From positions 1 through 25,842 of IMG/VR virus record IMGVR_UViG_3300031857_001221: 25,842 nt of DNA; one strand, written 5' to 3'. Under the pieces are notes generated by a model. It saw only the letters and a program-made list of their open reading frames with translations, had not been told where the DNA came from and searched no databases. Positions within the stretch are counted from its first letter, which is position 1. The number at the start of each line of letters is the position of its first letter. The translations under genes and the position numbers were made by a program. Shown here piece after piece: positions 666-17,115 of the stretch. Origin of the DNA: a virus.

Positions 666-1082
666 TTAACCTATTGTCCAAAAAGTACTACTAGTACTAC
701 TTTGAACGCTTGGTGTACTAGATGCATTAATTATAAATGAATTTGCTTGCTGTGCTGTGTGAGAACCAAAAGCTATTGGTTGTTCAAGATTAATAAACTT
801 TATTTTGTTAAAAGTAGTTAAATTTATTAATTGATTTAAAGGTAATTCATTTGATGCAACATTAGTGGTATCTGCTAGAACTATATTATTGCTTTGATTA
901 ATTGGTGAAGTACTAAAACCAATTGACTTTATTTTGTCAAAAGTAGTTAAATTTATTAATTGATTTAAAGGTAATTCATTTGATGCAACATTAGTAGTAT
1001 CTGCTAGAACTATATTATTGCTTTGATTAATTGGTGAAGTACTAAAACCAATTGACCTTTTATTCGATGATAAAATTGCCAT
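666..1082 (-). CDS. Small protein with a near-perfect 43-residue tandem duplication
   Basis: 138 residues, not recognised. After a ten-residue leader (MAILSSNKRS) the protein holds two copies of a 43-residue unit, one beginning IGFSTSPINQSNNIVLADTT and the next directly following. The copies differ only at one residue (FDKIK versus FNKIK). A Ser/Thr-rich tail follows, with AQQANSF and ending SSTFWTIG. It is rich in Asn, Ser, Thr and Ile, with no signal peptide or membrane segment, which suits a beta-rich virion appendage protein. No good Shine-Dalgarno sequence precedes the ATG; the start is chosen because it is the first Met after the upstream stop. It sits between the 483-residue protein and a repeat fibre gene, so a minor fibre or tip role is inferred only from position. 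Confidence 0.75.
   Translation of the reverse strand: MAILSSNKRSIGFSTSPINQSNNIVLADTTNVASNELPLNQLINLTTFDKIKSIGFSTSPINQSNNIVLADTTNVASNELPLNQLINLTTFNKIKFINLEQPIAFGSHTAQQANSFIINASSTPSVQSSTSSTFWTIG
798..1055 (-). repeat. 129-base direct tandem duplication, two copies
   Basis: Copy one covers 798-926 and copy two 927-1055. Position by position they differ only at 809/938 (t/c) and 867/996 (g/a). The unit is 43 codons, so the reading frame is kept. Such identity in an AT-rich structural gene points to a recent duplication. Confidence 0.95.
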
Positions 1083-3829: not shown

Positions 3830-3862
3830 CTCTATTTATACTCTATTTATACTCTATTTATA
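3830..3862 (-). promoter_or_regulatory. Three tandem T4-type late promoter boxes, 11-base period
   Basis: On the minus strand the 11-base unit TATAAATAGAG occurs three times without a break. TATAAATA falls at 3855-3862, 3844-3851 and 3833-3840, each an exact match to the T4 late promoter consensus. A degenerate fourth copy (CATAAATG) follows in the same phase. The first box overlaps the TAG stop of the 723-residue gene, and all precede the ATG at 3798 by 34-56 bases. Exact matches, orientation and place before a gene support promoter function; transcription itself is not shown. Confidence 0.65.
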
Positions 3863-6025
3863 CTCTAAGTCAATTCTTAAATCACTTGCTTGTGACCCAT
3901 TAGTAATATTTACTGTTAAGTAATCGTTTGAAGTTAAATTAATATTTGCTGCCGCTACGGTCATTTTATTTGTGTTAGAGTCTATGTTGTATGTTCCTAC
4001 TACTGACCCGTTTTTAACTACCTCGAAAGTAAAAGTGTTTGCTGATGTGGTGCTCAAACTAGCGTATACATTATTTATAGCTATATTACTAGGCGGATAA
4101 AATCTTACTGTTCCGGTTTTTATGACAATATTACCAGTTTCATTTAAAGTGATGTATCTTATTGAAGCAGTATTTGCTTGAGTGAATGCAGCATTAGCCT
4201 GTATAAATGCTGCGTTAGCAAATGATGCACCAGAATTGGCTGTAATAAAGGCAGCATTGGCTGCAATAAAGGCAGCATTATCAGATGCACCATTCAAAGT
4301 TGTTATTTCAATAAAAGCTGTATTTGGTGGAGTGGAATCAAATGTTAATATGGTACCAGATATATTATAACTTTCTTTTGGTTGTAATACACCTTGTATA
4401 GACACAAACGTAATATTTTTATTCGTTGGTGTTGTTGATAATGTGAAGTTGTTGGATATACCATTCGCAGTAAATGTATCAACAAAACTTGTTAATACAC
4501 CACCTACTCCACTACCCGTATTTGCAGCTGCATAAGCAGCATTGGCTCTATCGAAAGCACCATTGGCAAATGATGCACCAGAATTGGCTGTTACAAATGC
4601 TCCGTTAGCTGTATTGTAAGAGTTGTTAGCCTGATTTCTTACCCACGGATCGGTTGCATTGTTCGCTGCATTGAATGCCGCATTAGCTGTAATGAAAGCA
4701 CCGTTAGCAAACGATGCTGTGGTATTCTGGGATTCATATGATGCATTGGCTGTAATGAATGCTGAGTTAGCAAAGGATGCACCAGAGTTGGCCGTTGCAT
4801 ATGCATTATTAACATAAGGTAATAAATCTATACCTTTAATCGTTATGGTTGTTGATTTTAAATTTGCTTGAAGTGTTGCAATCTTAAATGATGCATGATT
4901 AATATCAATACTATTGTTTGCACCAACCTCAGGTGTATAACCTTCAAACACATGCCATTCTTTGGTGCCAGCATCTCGAATTATACCTGTGTGTGCATTG
5001 GTACCATCGTTGTAATGAGATGAAAAACCAATATCAAGTACATCACCTGAATAGTTTCCTGTACCCATAATAAAGAGTGTATCATTTGCAACAATTTGAG
5101 TTGCACTAGTGCTGAATGCATTACCTAATATACTTAGATTTCCTGTAATGGAAACATCACCAGAAATTGTACCACCTGATGTATTAAATTTTAAGTTTGC
5201 GGCCGCATAAGCACCGTTAGCAAAACTTGCCGCAGAGTTTGCTGTTATAAATGCTGCGTTAGCAAATGTTTGAGCCGAGTTTGCCGTATCGTATGCATTA
5301 TTGGCCTGAGTCCTAACCCAAGTATCAGTAGAATTATTAGCCTGTGCATAAGCAGCATTGGCTCTATCGAAAGCACCATTGGCAAATGATGCACCAGAAT
5401 TGGCTGTTATGAAGGCACCATTTGCAAATAAAGCACCTGTGTTTGCTTGGTCATAACTTGCATTGGCAGTTACAAAAGAACTATTAGCAAATGAACCTGC
5501 CGAGTTTGCTTTGTCAAACGCACTGTTAGCTTGTGTTCTTACCCATGTATCAGTAGAATTATTTGCCTGCGTGAAGGCAGCATTTGCCTGTGCATATGCC
5601 AAATTGGCGTGGTTGGCTGCATATGGACTTTCACCGCCGCCAGTGATGGTTGTTATTTCAACGTTGGCTCCATTATCAAATGCACTATCAAAAGTGACCA
5701 CGTTACCTGTAACAGTATACGTACTTCTTAATTGAGTAATACCATCGACTACTGCAATTATATAATTTTCATCTTCCGGTGATGTACTTAAATTGAATGT
5801 TGACGTATTACCATTGGCAGTAAACACATCAGAATAAATTGTTACTGGTGTACTACTGCCTCCACCACCACTAGTATTCGCCTGTAAGAAGGCCGCATTG
5901 GCCCTATCGAAGGCCGCATTAGCAAAAGAGGCTGCTGAGTTAGCAGTTACAAATGCACCATTAGCAAATGAACCGGTTAACCTTACATCCTTCTTATTTT
6001 GGTTGCCAATGTAAGTAAATTCCAT
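3854..6025 (-). CDS. Modular repeat tail fibre protein (723 residues)
   Basis: A mosaic fibre protein. Heptad AN-x-A repeats fill residues about 15-50, 130-275, 405-510 and 580-620, twice broken by the spacer DTWVRTQAN and once by DPWVRNQAN. Two copies of a small beta module lie at about 56-128 (SDVFTANGNTSTFNLS, then VDGITQL) and 511-580 (VDTFTANGISNNFTLS, then IQGVLQP); such modules are widespread in phage fibres. Residues about 280-405 form a module with DIGFSSHYNDG and HTGIIRDAG that recurs in the 637-residue fibre. The C-terminal 100 residues, ending DLRIDLEYK, look like a beta-sandwich. The start is one base after the stop of the 108-residue gene, with only GGAA as a weak ribosome site. 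I infer a trimeric fibre or baseplate appendage. Confidence 0.85.
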   Translation of the reverse strand: MEFTYIGNQNKKDVRLTGSFANGAFVTANSAASFANAAFDRANAAFLQANTSGGGGSSTPVTIYSDVFTANGNTSTFNLSTSPEDENYIIAVVDGITQLRSTYTVTGNVVTFDSAFDNGANVEITTITGGGESPYAANHANLAYAQANAAFTQANNSTDTWVRTQANSAFDKANSAGSFANSSFVTANASYDQANTGALFANGAFITANSGASFANGAFDRANAAYAQANNSTDTWVRTQANNAYDTANSAQTFANAAFITANSAASFANGAYAAANLKFNTSGGTISGDVSITGNLSILGNAFSTSATQIVANDTLFIMGTGNYSGDVLDIGFSSHYNDGTNAHTGIIRDAGTKEWHVFEGYTPEVGANNSIDINHASFKIATLQANLKSTTITIKGIDLLPYVNNAYATANSGASFANSAFITANASYESQNTTASFANGAFITANAAFNAANNATDPWVRNQANNSYNTANGAFVTANSGASFANGAFDRANAAYAAANTGSGVGGVLTSFVDTFTANGISNNFTLSTTPTNKNITFVSIQGVLQPKESYNISGTILTFDSTPPNTAFIEITTLNGASDNAAFIAANAAFITANSGASFANAAFIQANAAFTQANTASIRYITLNETGNIVIKTGTVRFYPPSNIAINNVYASLSTTSANTFTFEVVKNGSVVGTYNIDSNTNKMTVAAANINLTSNDYLTVNITNGSQASDLRIDLEYK

Positions 6026-6384: not shown

Positions 6385-8013
6385 TCAACTAAAGGCGATT
6401 GTGAAGGCAACAATATCAGAGTTTACATCGAGTGCGGTTGTTCCTGTGTTAGCTTTAGCGAAGGCTGCATTGGCTCTATCAAAAGCACCATTGGCAAAAC
6501 TTGCGGCCGAATTCGCTGTAATAAAGGCACCATTAGCAAAAAATTCTGCTGAATTTGCACTATTCCTAGCTACATTATCAACCGAAGAACCTCCAGAAAT
6601 TGTATTTGCAAATGCATATGCAGCATTGGCTCTATCAAAAGCACCATTGGCAAACATGGCACCAGAATTAGCTGCATTGAAAGCACCATTAGCAAACATG
6701 GCACCAGAATTAGCTGCATTGAAAGCACCATTAGCAAACGTGGCACCAGAATTGGCTGTTACAAAAGAACCATTAGCAAATGATGCCGCTGAATTGGCTC
6801 TATCAAAAGCACCATTAGCAAATGATGCACCAGAATTGGCTGTTACAAAAGCACCATTAGCAAACGTGGCACCAGAATTGGCTGTTACAAATGCACCATT
6901 AGCAAATGATGCCGCTGAATTGGCTCTATCAAAAGCACCATTGGCCAGCGAAAAAGCCAAAGTTGTATTACTAGCAACAAAAGAAACTGGTTGTTGTATA
7001 ATAATATTTCCAACCATACCACTATGGTATTGGCATTGATAAACATATGTACTTTCAACTAAAGAGAAAGGAACTTTCCAAAATAATATTCCAGATTCTT
7101 TTCCTTGAGCATTGGAACCTGTTGTTACAACACCTGAAGATGACACGTGTGTTAATCCATCAGAAATATTAGTACCACCTGATGATTGACGAATTAGAAA
7201 TGGATGACCAGATATATCAAGATTGAATGCTATTGTTTCACCACCTGAAATATAAATTGATGGATTATTACCTGAATATTGGTCAATTAAATATGCTGAA
7301 GCACCACTATGAGTTACATTTAATTTTGTTACAGCACTTGTATAGTTAGAATTTGCTTGTGTGAATGCACCATTAGCAAAGCTGGCTGCCGAATTGGCAA
7401 CATCGAATGCTCCGTTGGCAAATGAACCAGCTGAATTGGCTTTGTCGTAAGCATTATTTGCTTGAGTTCTTACCCACGGGTCTGTGGCGGTATTCGCAGC
7501 ATTATAGGCCGCATTGGCTCTATCGAAAGCTCCGTTAGCAAAAGTTGCTGATGAATTGGCCACCACAAAGGCACCGTTGGCAAACGATGCTGTGGTATTT
7601 TGTGAATCATAGGATGCATTAGCTCTTAAAAAAGCATCATTGGCAAAGCTGGCTGCTGAGTTAGCAGTTACAAATGCACCATTGGCACGGTCAAACGCAG
7701 GACCAGGGTCACTTCCACCTGATACTGACGCATTGATTGTGATTGTTTTTGTGGTTGTATTTGTGCTTATGGTAACATTATTACCTGCAACAAAAGACAA
7801 GGTGTCTGAACCACTTCCCGCAAATATTAGGGAGTTGTTTGAGTTGATTGTGTCAAACGAGAATTGGTTGGATATGTATGATGTACCACCAAGACTGTTT
7901 TTATAAAACAGTTTACCATCGGCGTAGTTAAGAGCAACCTCACCAAATGCAAGACCTGATGGTGTGTTTCCTGTTACGCCTGATTTTTTTAACTGTATTG
8001 CTGTGTTTGACAT
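6385..8013 (-). CDS. Repeat tail fibre protein with embedded cupredoxin-like domain (542 residues)
   Basis: Residues 1-48 (MSNTAIQLKKSG..., GEVALNYADGKLFYKNS) form an N-terminal module like that of phage tropism determinant (Mtd) proteins, shared with the 74- and 637-residue proteins here. A short beta part follows, then heptad AN-x-A repeats (about 105-225). Residues about 230-342 are a different fold: GHPFLI with His270, then YQCQYHSGMVGNI with Cys327, His330 and Met333. This is the ligand set and order of a type 1 copper centre, with the C-x2-H-x2-M spacing of amicyanin. Heptad repeats resume at about 350-515 as a 42-base tandem array in DNA. The ribosome site is probably GGCGGA, which encodes the DGG of the upstream gene's C-terminus. 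I infer a trimeric fibre with a domain on its shaft. Whether copper is bound is unknown. Confidence 0.87.
   Translation of the reverse strand: MSNTAIQLKKSGVTGNTPSGLAFGEVALNYADGKLFYKNSLGGTSYISNQFSFDTINSNNSLIFAGSGSDTLSFVAGNNVTISTNTTTKTITINASVSGGSDPGPAFDRANGAFVTANSAASFANDAFLRANASYDSQNTTASFANGAFVVANSSATFANGAFDRANAAYNAANTATDPWVRTQANNAYDKANSAGSFANGAFDVANSAASFANGAFTQANSNYTSAVTKLNVTHSGASAYLIDQYSGNNPSIYISGGETIAFNLDISGHPFLIRQSSGGTNISDGLTHVSSSGVVTTGSNAQGKESGILFWKVPFSLVESTYVYQCQYHSGMVGNIIIQQPVSFVASNTTLAFSLANGAFDRANSAASFANGAFVTANSGATFANGAFVTANSGASFANGAFDRANSAASFANGSFVTANSGATFANGAFNAANSGAMFANGAFNAANSGAMFANGAFDRANAAYAFANTISGGSSVDNVARNSANSAEFFANGAFITANSAASFANGAFDRANAAFAKANTGTTALDVNSDIVAFTIAFS
6641..6976 (-). 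repeat. 42-base tandem repeat array, eight units
   Basis: Units start at 6641, 6683, 6725, 6767, 6809, 6851, 6893 and 6935, exactly 42 bases apart; the last degenerates. Each encodes 14 residues of the ANGAFxx-ANSxAxF type. The 6641 and 6683 units are identical apart from one g/a change. The three-unit block at 6725 recurs 126 bases on at 6851 with few changes, a sign of block duplication. Confidence 0.93.
6988..7326 (-). other. Cupredoxin-like domain within the 542-residue fibre
   Basis: Codons 230-342 of the fibre encode a region free of the AN-x-A repeats. It includes the segments AYLIDQYSG, GETIAFNLDISGHPFLIR, GILFWKVPF and YVYQCQYHSGMVGNIII. His270, Cys327, His330 and Met333 match the His...Cys-His-Met pattern of blue copper proteins. 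The strand pattern and the closing VGNIII strand also fit a Greek-key beta barrel. The domain call is from motif and layout only. Confidence 0.7.
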
Positions 8014-11896: not shown

Positions 11897-12886
11897 TTAT
11901 TCGGTTCGCATCCAAACATAAAGTGGATCAATATCTGGTGTTGTATTGGCTGTGGCAAAGACTGTGTTGGTAACTGGTACCCAGGTACCAAAACCAAACA
12001 ATGTATTTGGATTAGCACTGTTCAATCCGTTCATATAAATTGAACCAATCGGATAACCAGTGGATAGTGTGTTTATTGTGGTAGGAATAGAAGGTTTATC
12101 TGCCAAATCAAAGTAAGAACCTGATGTGGCCACTGAAGCTAAACCTGCAACAGCTGATGCATTAATTAAAATTGCAATGTTGTTTGCAGAAGTAAGTCTA
12201 CCTCTGTTATCAACAGTAAATCTTGTTGCATGTGATTGTGAACCATATGAACCAGCAGTTACACCTGTTATTGTTAGTCTAGCAGATGGTAAAAATCCTG
12301 TGGTTATATTGGATGCATCTGTAGTATCGGTGGTTGCTGAAGTGGCCAAACCTGTAACTTGTGAAGATGGTATTGATATTGCCACGTTGGCCGCTGATGT
12401 GATTCTACCATAAGAATCAACTACAAACCTTGAGTATGCGGAACCAGCCGAGGAACCATATGTTCCAACAGTTACTGCTGTTGTTGGTAATCTGGCCGCA
12501 GCTAATGTACCTGAAGTAATGTTATCTGCATTGGTTGTATCTGTTGTAGCAGATGTTGCAAAAGTTGGATAACCAGTGATTTGTGAAGTTGCGATTTGAA
12601 TTGGTGTACTGTTCGCTGAAGTAATTCTTCCTTTAGTATCAACAGTAAAACGAGAAACTTGACTTGCGGAACCAACCGATGTTGCAGTTACCTTATCTGG
12701 TAATCTTGCATCAGCAATGGTACCTGATACCAATTGGCTTGTGTTTATTGCAACTGCATTTTGTTCGGCAGCAACAACACGGCCTTGTGCATCAATTTCA
12801 ATTGTTGGTATTTGTGAAGCTGTACCATAAGAACCAGCAGTGACTGCTGTATTTGCCAGTACTGATGGCGTTATCTTTGTTGTCAT
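11897..12886 (-). CDS. Tail fibre protein with repeat shaft and YPIGSIYM tip (329 residues)
   Basis: Residues about 15-230 are four repeats of roughly 50-60 residues with AGSYGxxxx-fxVDxxGRITsA and TDTTNAxNITsGxLxxARL. These repeats also form the C-terminal shaft of the preceding 1410-residue fibre (about 1000-1140), often nearly identically (IATSQITGYPTF). A short linker leads to YPIGSIYMNGLNSANP and TLFGFGTWVPV, ending YVWMRTE. That is the tip domain I know from the C-termini of T4 gp10-like baseplate and fibre proteins. Its ATG overlaps the upstream stop (ATGA), and AAGGA lies before it, so the two genes are probably translationally coupled. Being coupled and repeat-sharing, they may be partners in one fibre, or the result of an old duplication. 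Copper, sugar or enzyme motifs are not seen. Confidence 0.87.
   Translation of the reverse strand: MTTKITPSVLANTAVTAGSYGTASQIPTIEIDAQGRVVAAEQNAVAINTSQLVSGTIADARLPDKVTATSVGSASQVSRFTVDTKGRITSANSTPIQIATSQITGYPTFATSATTDTTNADNITSGTLAAARLPTTAVTVGTYGSSAGSAYSRFVVDSYGRITSAANVAISIPSSQVTGLATSATTDTTDASNITTGFLPSARLTITGVTAGSYGSQSHATRFTVDNRGRLTSANNIAILINASAVAGLASVATSGSYFDLADKPSIPTTINTLSTGYPIGSIYMNGLNSANPNTLFGFGTWVPVTNTVFATANTTPDIDPLYVWMRTE
12883..12886 (-). other. ATGA overlap, probable translational coupling
   Basis: On the minus strand ATGA contains the stop TGA of the 1410-residue fibre and the start ATG of the 329-residue protein. A Shine-Dalgarno AAGGA lies just upstream, inside the first gene's last codons. 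Confidence 0.9.
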
Positions 12887-15800
12887 TTATTCTGTCCTTT
12901 TAAAACTTCAATCTCTGCTTTAAGTTCTTTAATTGCTTCAATCAAAACACCAACAATGTTACCATAAGATACTGACATAAACTGGTCTTCACCTTCATGT
13001 TGCATAACAACTTCTGGAAGAACTTCTTTTATTTCTTGTGCAATAACACCAATGTTCTTTTCACCATTATCAATTCTTTCAAAAGAAACACCACGCATAT
13101 TCATCACTTTATCTAAAGCGTTTTCGATTGTTTGAATGTTTGTTTTTAATCTAATATCAGAGAAAGCAGTTACGTTGCCTGCCATCGTCAAGTTACCTGA
13201 CATGTCCATTTGGAATCTATTAGCACCTGCTGACCAACCGCCAATACGGAACACGTTATCGTTGTCTAGACCCATGTTAATAGCATAATAACCTGGTCTA
13301 TGGAAGGACATAGTTGCGTGGTTTGTACCTATACTACCTTGATTGCCATAAGCAACCAATGTACCTGCTTGACCTTGGGTATTAACTGATGCACTTGATG
13401 TATAATTTCTTGTACCCGTAATAGTGGCTGCGTCTGCCGTGTTTAGAACAGTGGAACCATTGACAATCAGACCTTGGCCAGGTAAATAATAATTTGAACC
13501 ATCATTGTAAAGATACCTATTGCCAGCACTGTTTAAGAATATAACACCAGTTGTACCACCGCTTCTGTATGCATAGATATCACCACTTGTTGTGAGTTGT
13601 GCTGAACCTGTACCATTCACAGATACAGCTCCAGTGAATGATGCACCACTCAATCTAGGCAATCCTGATGGCAATCTAGCATCAGCCAATGTACCTGATG
13701 TAATGTTACTTGCATTGGTTGTATCAGTAAAGACTGGGAAATCAGATATCTGTGATTTCGTAATAGAAATTTGTGAATCACTTGCAGCAGTAATTCTACC
13801 CTTTGCATCAACAGTAAATCTTCCAACCTTATTATTACCACCATATGAACCAGCACTTACTGCTGTTGATGACAGTCGTGCATCAGGCAAAGTACCTGAA
13901 GTAATATTGGTCGCATTGGTTGTGTCTGTGGTTGCTGATGCTGCAAAGGTTGGATAACCAGTAATCTGTGAAGTTGCAATTTGAATTGCAACATTAGTTG
14001 CACTAGTAATTCTACCTTTTGCATCGACAACAAATTTTGGTATTGAACTTGCTGTGCCATAACCTGTTGCAGTTACACCAGAATTATTTAAGTTGGTGTC
14101 AGCAATTGTACCAGAAAGTTTTGATGTTGCGAGACTTGTTAACCAAGATGGATCGGCATATGAACTACTTGAATACAATCCATTTGTTACTGTGCCTGCA
14201 TTACCAGTAATACTATGTGTTAATGTGTAACCAGCATTTGCATATTGGTTTACAAATTGTGTTGTTGCAAATACAGTGTTCGATGTAGTTGATGGCATAG
14301 TCAGACCATTAACACGGCCTGTAAAGGTGCCACCAATTTTTGGCATCTTTCTTGTTTCTAAGTTGTCGATTGCATCTTGAATAGTTGCACCAGACATATC
14401 ACCTGATGCAGGACCATAAACAATATTGTTTGCAAAGTATTCATACACGGCATAACCATCAACTTCAACCAAAATTTTATCACCAGTTACTGGTGGGCTT
14501 GTAAACCAAATAATAGAGTTTGAAGTAAATGCATTGTATTCAGATTCTAATTGACGCACACCGTTAATGTATGCTCTAAGTTGTGTACCAGTACTGAATG
14601 TTGGTGTGGTAAACTTAGCGGTCGAACTATCACCAGTATAAGATAAACGAGCAGAAGAAATTCTAGAACCTGGTTGTGTACCGCCACCACCACCACCACC
14701 GGTACCACCTGTTACCCAAGAATAACTACCAGAACCATCTGTACCAAGAACTTTTCCGGCTTCACCTGAACCTGCTGCAGCAGTTACTGCTAAACCAAAT
14801 AATGATGCATAGGATGTTGTTCCTGTACCACCTTGGCCTACTTGTAGTGGAGTTGACAATGTTAAACCAGCAAACGTTGGTGAACCGGAAGTTCTTAGGT
14901 CTTGTGACGTACTGATTGACAATGTGTTACCTGTATCACCATCATTTGTGGCAAAAATAACAATACCATTGTTACTTCTTAAGGTAACACCAGCATCACT
15001 CGCAGAAATTGAACCTGTTGTTCCTCTGATTGAAGATATAACACTGTTTGCTTTTGCAAATGCTGCATTGGCCTGTGCAAATGCTGGTGCAACTTGAGGT
15101 GCCACATTGTTTGCAGATTCATATGCTGCGTTTGCATGTCTAAATGCTGCGTTTGCAAATGATGCGGTTGTATTTTGAGCCGCATAAGATGAGTTGGCTC
15201 TTACAAAGGCACCGTTTGCAAAACTGTTGGTTGAATTTGTGACCGATGTAAAATAATTATTTGCTGTTTGTATTTTTACATCTAGTGTGTTTGCAGCCAA
15301 TGATGATGCAATGACCAATGGATTGGTAGAATCCAATGCGTCACTAAGGTGTTCATCACTTAAAATTCTATAGTAGTCACCTGTGTGTACACCATATACT
15401 TCCCACCATTCTTGTGATTCGTTCCAAAAAATTTCTGCATTTGCACCAGTGATACCTCTGTTTACAAAGATGGAAGCAAATTGGCCTTCATTTGATGCTG
15501 CGTTTAATGTAAACACATTTGAGTTGTACACTGTTGTGCCATTGATAACAAAATCTCCACCAACAGATAACTGACCTAAAGTTTGTAGGTTGTTTACAAA
15601 AACTGATGCGTCATTAGCATCAATCTTGTTTGTAACAAACATTGTTGCAGTGTTTACAGATGTGTTTGCTTGTAATCTATTTGTAAAAGTATTGCTTGTG
15701 ACACTTATTGATTGTGCATTTACTGTACTGTTTGCTTGGAATCTATTTGAATAAGCAATTGTCGCAACACTTAAAATGTCAGTGTTAACTGATGTGTTGG

Positions 15801-17115
15801 CTTGTACTCTATCAATCAATGCACGTTGAGTCACAGATAAAGTTTCTGTATTTGCCGAAGTGTTGGCTTGTAAAGTATTAGTATGTGTCTTACCTGTTAC
15901 AGCAATACCTGCTGTAGTAACTAATGTATTTGCGACCAAATAATTTGTCCAGCTGGTGTTAACAACACTTGAGTTGGATGTATTCATTGACGAATTTGCT
16001 TGTACAAAACGTGTCAATGTGGTACCTTCAACGTCTATTGAAGGTGTATAAATGTGTAAGTTTGCAGTAAGATAATCACCATAACCTTGTACAAAATGTA
16101 ATGTTGGTGTGGTTATATTTGCTGCAGCAAAGAATGATGTTGAGTTGGTGTTACCAACAGTGAGACTATTATTTTGTATGTAAACGGTATTTGCAAATAC
16201 TATATCACTGAACATTGTGTTTGCTGCATAGACATTATCATCCACATATGTGGATGAATTTACAAAGAAATTATTGCTCACATATGCATTACCTGATATA
16301 AAGGCTTCAGGTACACGAATGGATGAATTTGCAACTATGTTATTAGCGAATACTGTGTTAACAACGGATACATTTGATGTGTTTACGGATGAGTTTGCTT
16401 GTACTCTATTTACATACAACGTATTAACAATAGAAGCATTTGATGTGTTAACGGATGAATTGGCTTGTAACGAGTTGCCAAAGATACCAGTTGTTATAGA
16501 AATGGTCGCAGCGTTAATAACGGTGTTGGCTTGAATTTCTGTGGTTGTTATAGAAGTGTTTGATTGCAAACGACTTGTGAAGATACTACTGTTTGCGGTA
16601 AGTACACCTGTAACAACTTGATTATTTGCTTGCAGTTTATTGGTAAACGTTGAACCAGTAACAGATAAGGTCGATGTGTTAACTTTCTGACGAGCTTCTA
16701 GAATATTTAAATCTAGGTCACCACCAACATACAAATTACCATCAACCTCGGCATCATTAACAACTCTAAGACCATATCCTAAACCAGATACTGTTAATAC
16801 TTTATCAATTTGAACATTACCTGATGCAGTCAAACTTAATTCCGTATTGGTAAATAAACCTTGGCGTTGAACAGTTAAATCATTCTGTACAACAGCATAT
16901 GAACCAACACCTTGAACACTCAATACTTTTTGTACAATAACATTACCGTTTGATTGTAATGCGTTCAGTGTGCCTTCGGAAAGATAAATTGTTCCCGAAT
17001 CTTTCACATAATTGTCTTTAGCCAATGCATTATTTTCAGCAATCAATGCATTAGTTGACGTTAACCAATGGCCGAATGTATTGGCATAACTTAATGAGGT
17101 AACTGTATTAGCCAT
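12883..17115 (-). CDS. Large tail fibre protein with C-terminal S74 intramolecular chaperone (1410 residues)
   Basis: AAAGG precedes the ATG. Residues about 145-510 hold 22-residue repeats (QANTSVNTxxLSVT-xxFTNRL). About 518-585 is a module with NAEIFWNESQEWWEVYGVHT. AN-x-A heptads run over about 628-692 and one GGTG repeat lies near 755. A poly-Gly linker sits at about 800-812 and a beta module with INGVRQLESEY at about 817-884. AGSYG/DAKGRITSA repeats follow at about 1000-1140. About 1165-1318 carries SFHRPGYYAINMGLDNDN and GGWSAG, as in many marine phage fibres. The last 92 residues are an endosialidase-type chaperone (Peptidase S74). Ser1319 and Lys1324 in SDIRLKT form the known self-cleavage dyad, followed by IGVIAQEIKEVLPEVV and a final coiled coil. 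I infer a trimeric receptor-binding fibre that matures by cleavage before Ser1319. Confidence 0.93.
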   Translation of the reverse strand: MANTVTSLSYANTFGHWLTSTNALIAENNALAKDNYVKDSGTIYLSEGTLNALQSNGNVIVQKVLSVQGVGSYAVVQNDLTVQRQGLFTNTELSLTASGNVQIDKVLTVSGLGYGLRVVNDAEVDGNLYVGGDLDLNILEARQKVNTSTLSVTGSTFTNKLQANNQVVTGVLTANSSIFTSRLQSNTSITTTEIQANTVINAATISITTGIFGNSLQANSSVNTSNASIVNTLYVNRVQANSSVNTSNVSVVNTVFANNIVANSSIRVPEAFISGNAYVSNNFFVNSSTYVDDNVYAANTMFSDIVFANTVYIQNNSLTVGNTNSTSFFAAANITTPTLHFVQGYGDYLTANLHIYTPSIDVEGTTLTRFVQANSSMNTSNSSVVNTSWTNYLVANTLVTTAGIAVTGKTHTNTLQANTSANTETLSVTQRALIDRVQANTSVNTDILSVATIAYSNRFQANSTVNAQSISVTSNTFTNRLQANTSVNTATMFVTNKIDANDASVFVNNLQTLGQLSVGGDFVINGTTVYNSNVFTLNAASNEGQFASIFVNRGITGANAEIFWNESQEWWEVYGVHTGDYYRILSDEHLSDALDSTNPLVIASSLAANTLDVKIQTANNYFTSVTNSTNSFANGAFVRANSSYAAQNTTASFANAAFRHANAAYESANNVAPQVAPAFAQANAAFAKANSVISSIRGTTGSISASDAGVTLRSNNGIVIFATNDGDTGNTLSISTSQDLRTSGSPTFAGLTLSTPLQVGQGGTGTTSYASLFGLAVTAAAGSGEAGKVLGTDGSGSYSWVTGGTGGGGGGGTQPGSRISSARLSYTGDSSTAKFTTPTFSTGTQLRAYINGVRQLESEYNAFTSNSIIWFTSPPVTGDKILVEVDGYAVYEYFANNIVYGPASGDMSGATIQDAIDNLETRKMPKIGGTFTGRVNGLTMPSTTSNTVFATTQFVNQYANAGYTLTHSITGNAGTVTNGLYSSSSYADPSWLTSLATSKLSGTIADTNLNNSGVTATGYGTASSIPKFVVDAKGRITSATNVAIQIATSQITGYPTFAASATTDTTNATNITSGTLPDARLSSTAVSAGSYGGNNKVGRFTVDAKGRITAASDSQISITKSQISDFPVFTDTTNASNITSGTLADARLPSGLPRLSGASFTGAVSVNGTGSAQLTTSGDIYAYRSGGTTGVIFLNSAGNRYLYNDGSNYYLPGQGLIVNGSTVLNTADAATITGTRNYTSSASVNTQGQAGTLVAYGNQGSIGTNHATMSFHRPGYYAINMGLDNDNVFRIGGWSAGANRFQMDMSGNLTMAGNVTAFSDIRLKTNIQTIENALDKVMNMRGVSFERIDNGEKNIGVIAQEIKEVLPEVVMQHEGEDQFMSVSYGNIVGVLIEAIKELKAEIEVLKGQNK
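13154..13161 (-). other. Predicted S74 self-cleavage site (Ser1319-Asp)
   Basis: The codons for FSDIRLK fall here, with Ser1319 at 13159-13161 and Lys1324 five residues on. In endosialidase-type fibres this Ser-Lys pair cuts the chain just before the Ser to release the chaperone. Only the motif match is seen. Confidence 0.75.
15640..16680 (-). repeat. Array of 66-base repeats in the S74 fibre
   Basis: Repeated segments encode QAN-S/T-S/T-V-N-T followed by S/T-x-x-x-V/I-T/N with a 22-residue period. Adjacent QANSS units around the SVNTSNVSVVNT segment are 22 residues apart, and so are the RLQANTSVN units. DNA copies diverge, but the frame and period are kept. This is probably the shaft of the fibre. 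Confidence 0.78.

Follow-up and report, generated by a model that had tools for sequence, protein, structure and literature searches.

A cupredoxin with a predicted type 1 copper site as an optional module in a T4-like phage fibre

Introduction

What would a complete set of type 1 copper ligands be doing inside the shaft of a phage fibre? Blue copper centres are electron carriers and parts of enzymes, and the locus studied here places the ligands of such a centre between alanine-rich repeats. Our source record, whose 25,842 bases we call the window, holds T4-like structural genes in a minus-strand run, with a series of fibre genes among them. In one of these the first-pass annotation, made from the letters of the DNA alone, had picked out a domain at codons 230-342 (window 6988-7326), and these coordinates agreed with ORF 8013-6385(-) when we checked them.

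Among the open-access PMC papers listed by our searches, judged by titles and abstract openings, none describes a type 1 copper or other cupredoxin domain as part of a phage particle. Passages in PMC10436341 concern a copper grid and petE, those in PMC4535781 halocyanins, those in PMC9605863 the cupredoxin genes of Borgs, and those in PMC2984593 and PMC5083919 phage petE plastocyanin, a metabolic gene. None of the best 60 of 71 matches of our family profile in the PDB was named as a phage protein. The fold and the type of site are already known in kind; what is new in this analysis is that the module is optional and changes gene, and that its metal site is kept nearly everywhere.

Results

The domain sits within an alanine-rich fibre

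Fibre gene A (6385..8013, minus strand) encodes 542 aa with the cupredoxin module inside, and was recognised from its ORF, its tail-fibre PHROG matches and a gene order like that of its sister phages. We infer the location of its product on the virion from gene order and fibre families. The same run of genes includes a gp8-like baseplate protein (25101-23722, minus strand), whose identity with the gp8 proteins of cyanophages and a Stenotrophomonas phage is about 30%.

From its N-terminus, the fibre consists of an anchor (residues 1-110; 7684..8013, minus strand) that is near-identical in module-bearing and module-free sister phages, a left AN-x-A shaft (residues 106-228; 7330..7698, minus strand), the cupredoxin domain (residues 229-343; 6985..7329, minus strand), a right shaft that is AN-x-A for the most part (residues 344-519; 6457..6984, minus strand), and the C-terminal tail KANTGTTALDVNSDIVAFTIAFS (6388..6456, minus strand), retained in the sister phages give or take a few residues. 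The limits of the domain were set by its homologues, in keeping with the predicted fold, and AN-x-A repeats lie on either side of it. Both shafts were assigned from the sequence, from a Pfam Alanine_zipper match in the fibre and from a low-confidence helix prediction; when the module and its flanks were predicted together the flanks came out as helices, but at a mean pLDDT of 57, domain part included, which is too low to establish the structure of the shaft. Cys327 is the sole cysteine among the 542 residues of the fibre, which has only four histidines.

The neighbouring fibre gene B (723 aa; 3854..6025, minus strand) has other stretches, free of cysteine, between the same kind of repeats. Elsewhere in the window, a stretch of roughly 43 residues, starting SIGFSTSPINQSNNIVLADTTN, occurs twice in near-identical form in a 138-aa ORF at 666-1082 (minus strand), and the C-terminal end of a 1,410-aa fibre at 12883-17115 (minus strand) presumably resembles an S74-type chaperone domain.

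The predicted fold is that of a cupredoxin

Modelled from an 89-sequence alignment, the domain was all-beta, with a mean pLDDT of 97.2 and a pTM of 0.89, and showed the Greek-key beta-barrel of the cupredoxin superfamily. All 26 matches at E<=0.001 in a fold search of the PDB were cupredoxins (rusticyanin, amicyanin, plastocyanin, copper nitrite reductase, laccases and others), and VIA gave a Z of 10.9 for a nitrite reductase domain (rmsd 2.2, 103 residues), 9.6 for AcoP, 9.4 for CotA and 9.3 for CueO, which bears out the cupredoxin barrel implied by the initial blue copper reading. Foldseek TM-scores were modest, at 0.42-0.62 among the 50 matches listed.

A single-sequence search of the PDB with the window domain gave nothing at E<=10, so a profile was needed. 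The family profile, which was built from ligand-keeping members, matched 71 sequences at E<=1, and the best 60 of these 71 comprised 59 cupredoxin-type copper proteins and one antibody chain. Against curated models the window domain stayed under the cut-offs, scoring 16 bits where the Pfam gathering cut-off of PF00127 (plastocyanin/azurin) is 21.2 and 12.5 bits where that of plastocyanin TIGR02656 is 87.85, and it was not among the matches of the amicyanin model TIGR02657. Among its 89 family relatives, 17 matched PF00127 and 12 matched TIGR02657 at E<=0.01.

Four residues form a predicted type 1 copper site

The residues on which the first-pass annotation had based its proposal were all found at the positions claimed when the ORF was read directly: His270, in the motif GHPF (7204..7206), Cys327 (7033..7035), His330 (7024..7026) and the predicted axial ligand Met333 (7015..7017), all on the minus strand. 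Their assignment as predicted type 1 ligands draws on conservation and on the alignment with azurin-like proteins. The spacing of the last three had been called amicyanin-like, and the ligand loop of fibre A does read C-x2-H-x2-M, the spacing of the amicyanin loop. The gap of 57 residues from His to Cys, noted as longer than in amicyanin, was also confirmed; its length is not unusual. A relative in P-SSM2 has 46 (H41 to C87), and in known type 1 proteins the distance ranges from about 39 to 66 residues.

The model places His42 (270) in the loop that joins strands 32-38 and 44-47; Cys99 (327) closes strand 93-99, His102 (330) follows in the loop after that strand, and Met105 (333) immediately precedes strand 106-112. 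The window domain has the His in a loop ahead of a strand, followed in the final hairpin by C-x(n)-H-x(m)-M, and the modelled loop placement of the four residues is the usual arrangement of a type 1 site. Profile alignment with two Marivirga azurin-like proteins placed GHPF on GHNW and C, H and M on C, H and M, at an E of about 1e-4 and an HHalign probability of only 30-42%.

The clade of the window carries a hairpin inserted at about domain residues 61-80, identified from the alignment of homologues (residues 289-308; 7090..7149, minus strand). It contains His289 (7147-7149), which is invariant in 48 of 48 window-like rows and belongs to a hairpin missing from the cyanophage rows of the 18-domain alignment described below; this residue may lie near the metal site or form another contact.

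To gauge how easily such an arrangement arises at random we shuffled the sequences, and H-x(30-80)-C-x(2-4)-H-x(2-4)-M turned up in 26 of 20,000 shuffles of the domain and in 3 of 20,000 shuffles of the whole fibre. Conservation is a stronger argument for the site than these shuffle statistics.

The ligands are kept in distant homologues

Eighteen diverse domains, 28-72% identical to the first row of their alignment, share eleven invariant columns, six of which are H, P, F, C, H and M; the rows came from tblastn hits and from a pattern search whose patterns include ligand peptides. Our wider census, from which matches shorter than 70 residues or containing X were dropped, comprised at least 371 hits and at least 279 distinct domains. 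One group alone was collected in a ligand-free manner, with peptide patterns that avoid the ligands, and in its 58 distinct domains, among the matches listed, both histidines and the cysteine were each present in 58 of 58 and the methionine in 52, with Gln in the other six.

The remaining census groups were gathered by patterns that include ligand peptides or by tblastn. All four ligands were present in 51 of 51 domains of the window-like group and in 14 of 14 of the phage-record group (from 12 records). In a further viral group, among the matches listed, the first His was kept in 62 of 62 and C, H and M in 60 of 62 each, while each of the four was kept in 92 of 94 cellular domains. Twelve further cyanophage isolates, hand-picked from lists and spread over the search rankings, had the full set without exception (11 connectors and one long-tail-fibre protein). 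The 18-domain alignment, the 58-domain set and the twelve isolates together show that the ligands seen in the window are maintained in distant homologues. Another alignment, A5, consists of members chosen for keeping all four ligands, and its invariant columns are therefore no test of conservation.

Some copies have lost ligands, namely the second copies in L142 and L145, those in L202 and L246, and that in L213, which is itself incomplete. Gln takes the place of the axial Met in six distinct domains of the gp9 scan (L275, L296, L300, L305, L307 and L311), within the motif WCHHHTGQG in five and WCHFHTNQG in L300; L275 and L296 also have a second, Met-bearing copy.

Cysteine is concentrated in the domain. 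In 62 distinct ORFs of window-like loci there were 62 cysteines in 7,116 domain residues, compared with 12 in 26,630 residues outside. This contrast is weaker in other phages (1.09 vs 0.24 and 0.95 vs 0.14 cysteines per 100 residues, domain vs outside) and absent in cells (0.98 vs 1.0). Within the window-like group the median dN/dS was 0.21 over 757 of 1,225 pairs, with a largest value of 0.83. Across 48 window-like rows (two L080 rows being omitted) the ligands were constant, whereas positions 328, 329 and 331, beside His330, were variable, with entropies of 1.6-2.1 bits.

The domain is common in cyanophages and occurs in cells

The supposition that such domains might be widespread in marine phages held up well. 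By tblastn, the window query found the domain in 164 phage records at E<=0.01, and at E<=1e-5 the gp9 domain of P-TIM40 found 315 and a domain of P-SSM2 found 341, in addition to at least 600 matches in each of two scans of IMG/VR. Nearly all of these phage records are Synechococcus and Prochlorococcus phages. For scale, a gp8 search reached 458 cyanophage-named records against up to 341 for the domain, which makes it common in cyanophages without showing it to be general.

In 30 records spread over the ranking, 26 of the carriers were annotated as tail fibre connectors, and in the cyanophage connector genes that we read the domain stood at the C-terminus, in some cases with a short tail after it. 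Other carriers were a long tail fibre proximal subunit, tail-fibre-like proteins, subtilase-domain proteins and a lake actinomycete phage. Synechococcus phages S-H9-1 and S-BM3 (L084:1309-3321 and L090:2086-6282) join the domain with a subtilase (Peptidase_S8) in one protein. A single copy per polypeptide was the rule, found in 245 of 259 viral ORFs among the matches listed.

Cellular carriers were mostly Bacteroidota, with PS1-clade bacteria, Myxococcota, haloarchaea and others, and often looked secreted, judged from N-termini by eye and from the companion domains of eight of them via Pfam. In three bacterial and archaeal carriers (L174, L201 and L237) the domain is joined with DUF7282, CHRD, or GLUG and PKD repeats. 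The domains of the window fell with gp9-type domains in the tree (support 95/86), and the starred branches require at least three changes between cells and viruses. This tree rests on few columns, leaves 40 of its 104 inner branches unresolved, has an unsettled bootstrap and puts row L079_406, from the window search, outside the group used.

As to the host, none of eight long related records had a Photo_RC gene. The gp23 of one of these relatives, G009, is nearest among named phages to Methylophilales phages (67.6%); Synechococcus phages follow so closely (66%) that this signal, like the first, only hints at a non-cyanobacterial host.

The module is optional and changes gene between close relatives

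A search with the N-terminal 105 residues of fibre A returned 70 loci. At E<=1e-40 the anchor was found in 49 ORFs, three of them cut by a contig end, and only six of the 49 carried the cupredoxin; all six lie on contigs with a domain that matches that of the window exactly or almost exactly. Uncut counterparts of fibre A in L348-L395 ranged from 136 to 1,376 aa behind nearly the same anchor.

In six sister phages (L353-L356, L359 and L360) the counterpart of fibre A is only 159 aa long and has no module, yet it begins with the same anchor and closes, to within a few residues, with the same C-terminal tail. The DNA upstream of their fibre A is 86-89% identical to the window over 3.5-4.3 kb, and gene order around fibre A is unchanged in the sister phages. 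In the comparison with L353, shaft, cupredoxin and shaft (6499..7679, minus strand) are replaced by about 32 nt: the bases matching window positions 7680 and 6498 are 33 nt apart in L353 and 1.18 kb apart in the window, the exact borders being uncertain because of the repeats. The domain as a core structural part of fibre A was considered as well, and is ruled out by these counterparts with the same ends and no module.

In L358, gene A encodes a module-free protein of 187 aa, and it is the counterpart of fibre gene B that bears the cupredoxin; in L381, L389 and L390 the cupredoxin is in another ORF of the same stretch. The cupredoxin is thus an optional module that changes gene between close relatives. 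Since the shaft of fibre A has long exact words in common with fibre B (33 nt to the left of the domain and 32 nt to the right), while the domain itself has none above 13, recombination in the repeats is probably the route of this change of gene.

Finally, we searched eight long records bearing the anchor or a relative of it, G009 with its 179,754 bases included, which were selected by length from those whose retrieved stretch lacked the module. None gave a copy at E<=1e-3, in records that are possibly incomplete, and the same search recovered 3 of 3 known copies. G009 retains its fibre genes and has no cupredoxin copy at that threshold.

Discussion

The explanation towards which we lean, with modest confidence in it as a whole, is that of a copper-locked cupredoxin knob with a complete type 1 site in the alanine-rich shaft of a T4-like phage fibre. 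Its parts differ in strength. That the domain belongs to the cupredoxins and maintains a type 1 site is almost certain, and that the predicted site binds copper is likely; the role of the module as an accessory contact knob is a tentative proposal. Close relatives have the fibre gene without the module, whose role should therefore be accessory. Nearly every copy of the module retains the site, and the metal should therefore matter for that role. A site kept in the relatives found in hundreds of phages suggests that virus particles may bind copper for a purpose.

We envisage that the polypeptide, as a product of the cytoplasm, would encounter copper chiefly once the cell has lysed, and that a site with type 1 affinity could load it from the surroundings, such that copper (or another thiophilic metal) would be taken up after the virion leaves the cell. 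The bound copper would hold the ligand loops rigid, the knob would make an accessory contact with the host surface or with particles, and recombination between the AN-x-A coding repeats would move the module between fibres. Several observations sit less comfortably with this proposal. The window domain scores under the PF00127 cut-off and its Foldseek TM-scores are modest. Conservation at the dN/dS level seen here is not usual for a diversifying receptor binder, the presence of the same domain on the cyanophage gp9 connector, where it is common, fits poorly with an optional knob, and a few copies have lost ligands (the second copies of L142 and L145, and those of L202 and L246).

The metal site might instead be structural only, the domain being a stiff spacer whose fold needs copper or zinc and which has no special contact role. 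Invariant ligands among otherwise variable positions, conserved domain ends and the cysteine-free stretches between like repeats of the sibling fibre B would all suit a spacer. We nevertheless regard this as rather unlikely, given that the fibre tolerates the complete absence of the module and that apo-cupredoxins usually fold without metal, which makes four invariant ligands for folding alone unexpected.

Less likely again is a redox or trigger device, in which the copper site would exchange electrons with, or be reduced by, a component of the host surface and so help to fire or regulate adsorption. In known proteins type 1 sites serve electron transfer, and the domains that fall together with the window's in the tree sit C-terminally on gp9-type connectors, between baseplate and tail fibre; the frequency of the domain on cyanophage gp9 keeps the idea alive. 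However, we noticed neither an electron partner nor a further redox centre in the module, G009 dispenses with any copy detectable at E<=1e-3 in its 179,754 bases yet keeps its fibre genes, and the residues adjoining His330 vary while the ligands stay constant, which argues against one fixed redox partner. We favour the copper-locked contact knob over a redox device. We are sceptical of a broader proposition, under which marine and lake phages of the T4 type, among them many cyanophages, would have functional type 1 copper centres on their adsorption apparatus (gp9 connector and fibres), with copper or its redox state active in host recognition or in the triggering of infection.

Capture or detoxification of copper by the particle, with copper or reactive oxygen scavenged near the host, seems very unlikely: the copper affinity of type 1 sites is very high and many cellular carriers look secreted, but with one copy in nearly every viral polypeptide there would be few sites per particle, and an open catalytic site is not expected with this ligand set. 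A dead fold, that is a cupredoxin scaffold reused for binding with its four residues retained by inertia, is barely credible, for although phage fibres often borrow beta-sandwiches and a few copies do lack the full ligand set, the four ligands are invariant across the 18 diverse domains, the main exception is a change from Met to Gln, which is still a copper ligand in stellacyanin, and these fibres nearly avoid cysteine elsewhere.

If selection maintains a type 1 site on virion appendages, one present in more than 300 cyanophage records and optional in the lineage of the window, the adsorption apparatus would have a metal cofactor that goes unseen under such present labels as 'baseplate wedge tail fiber connector' and 'hypothetical protein'. 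The comparison of sister phages also illustrates clearly how a module changes gene within a set of fibre genes that have coding repeats in common.

Among known systems, the domain is closest in kind to the blue copper cupredoxins (azurin, amicyanin, plastocyanin and rusticyanin), which it resembles in predicted fold, ligand order and loops, and from which it differs in having an extra hairpin, in sitting in a phage fibre and in being without a known redox partner. It is also like the multicopper oxidases (laccase, CotA and CueO) in fold, with Z of 9.3-9.4. Multicopper oxidases have an HPF-like motif at the first His, a parallel supported by the fold match; profile comparison with Cu-oxidase_2 domains gave no usable alignment. 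A multicopper oxidase has two or three cupredoxin domains with the His motifs of type 2/3 copper, whereas fibre A, with one domain and four histidines, does not belong among them. The At5g54830-like domain (PF25489) is matched by 20 of the 89 family members at E<=0.01, and a Halobellus protein exceeds its cut-off, while the window domain itself has no listed match to it. The nearest phage system is the gp9-type connector (PHROG 677), to whose C-terminal domain the window domain is homologous (E 1.2e-24) and with which it shares its group in the tree. Over the full profile the best stretch covered positions 201-410 of 412, the first 200 being unmatched by fibre A; the domain is terminal in the connector, whereas in fibre A it is an optional module within the shaft.
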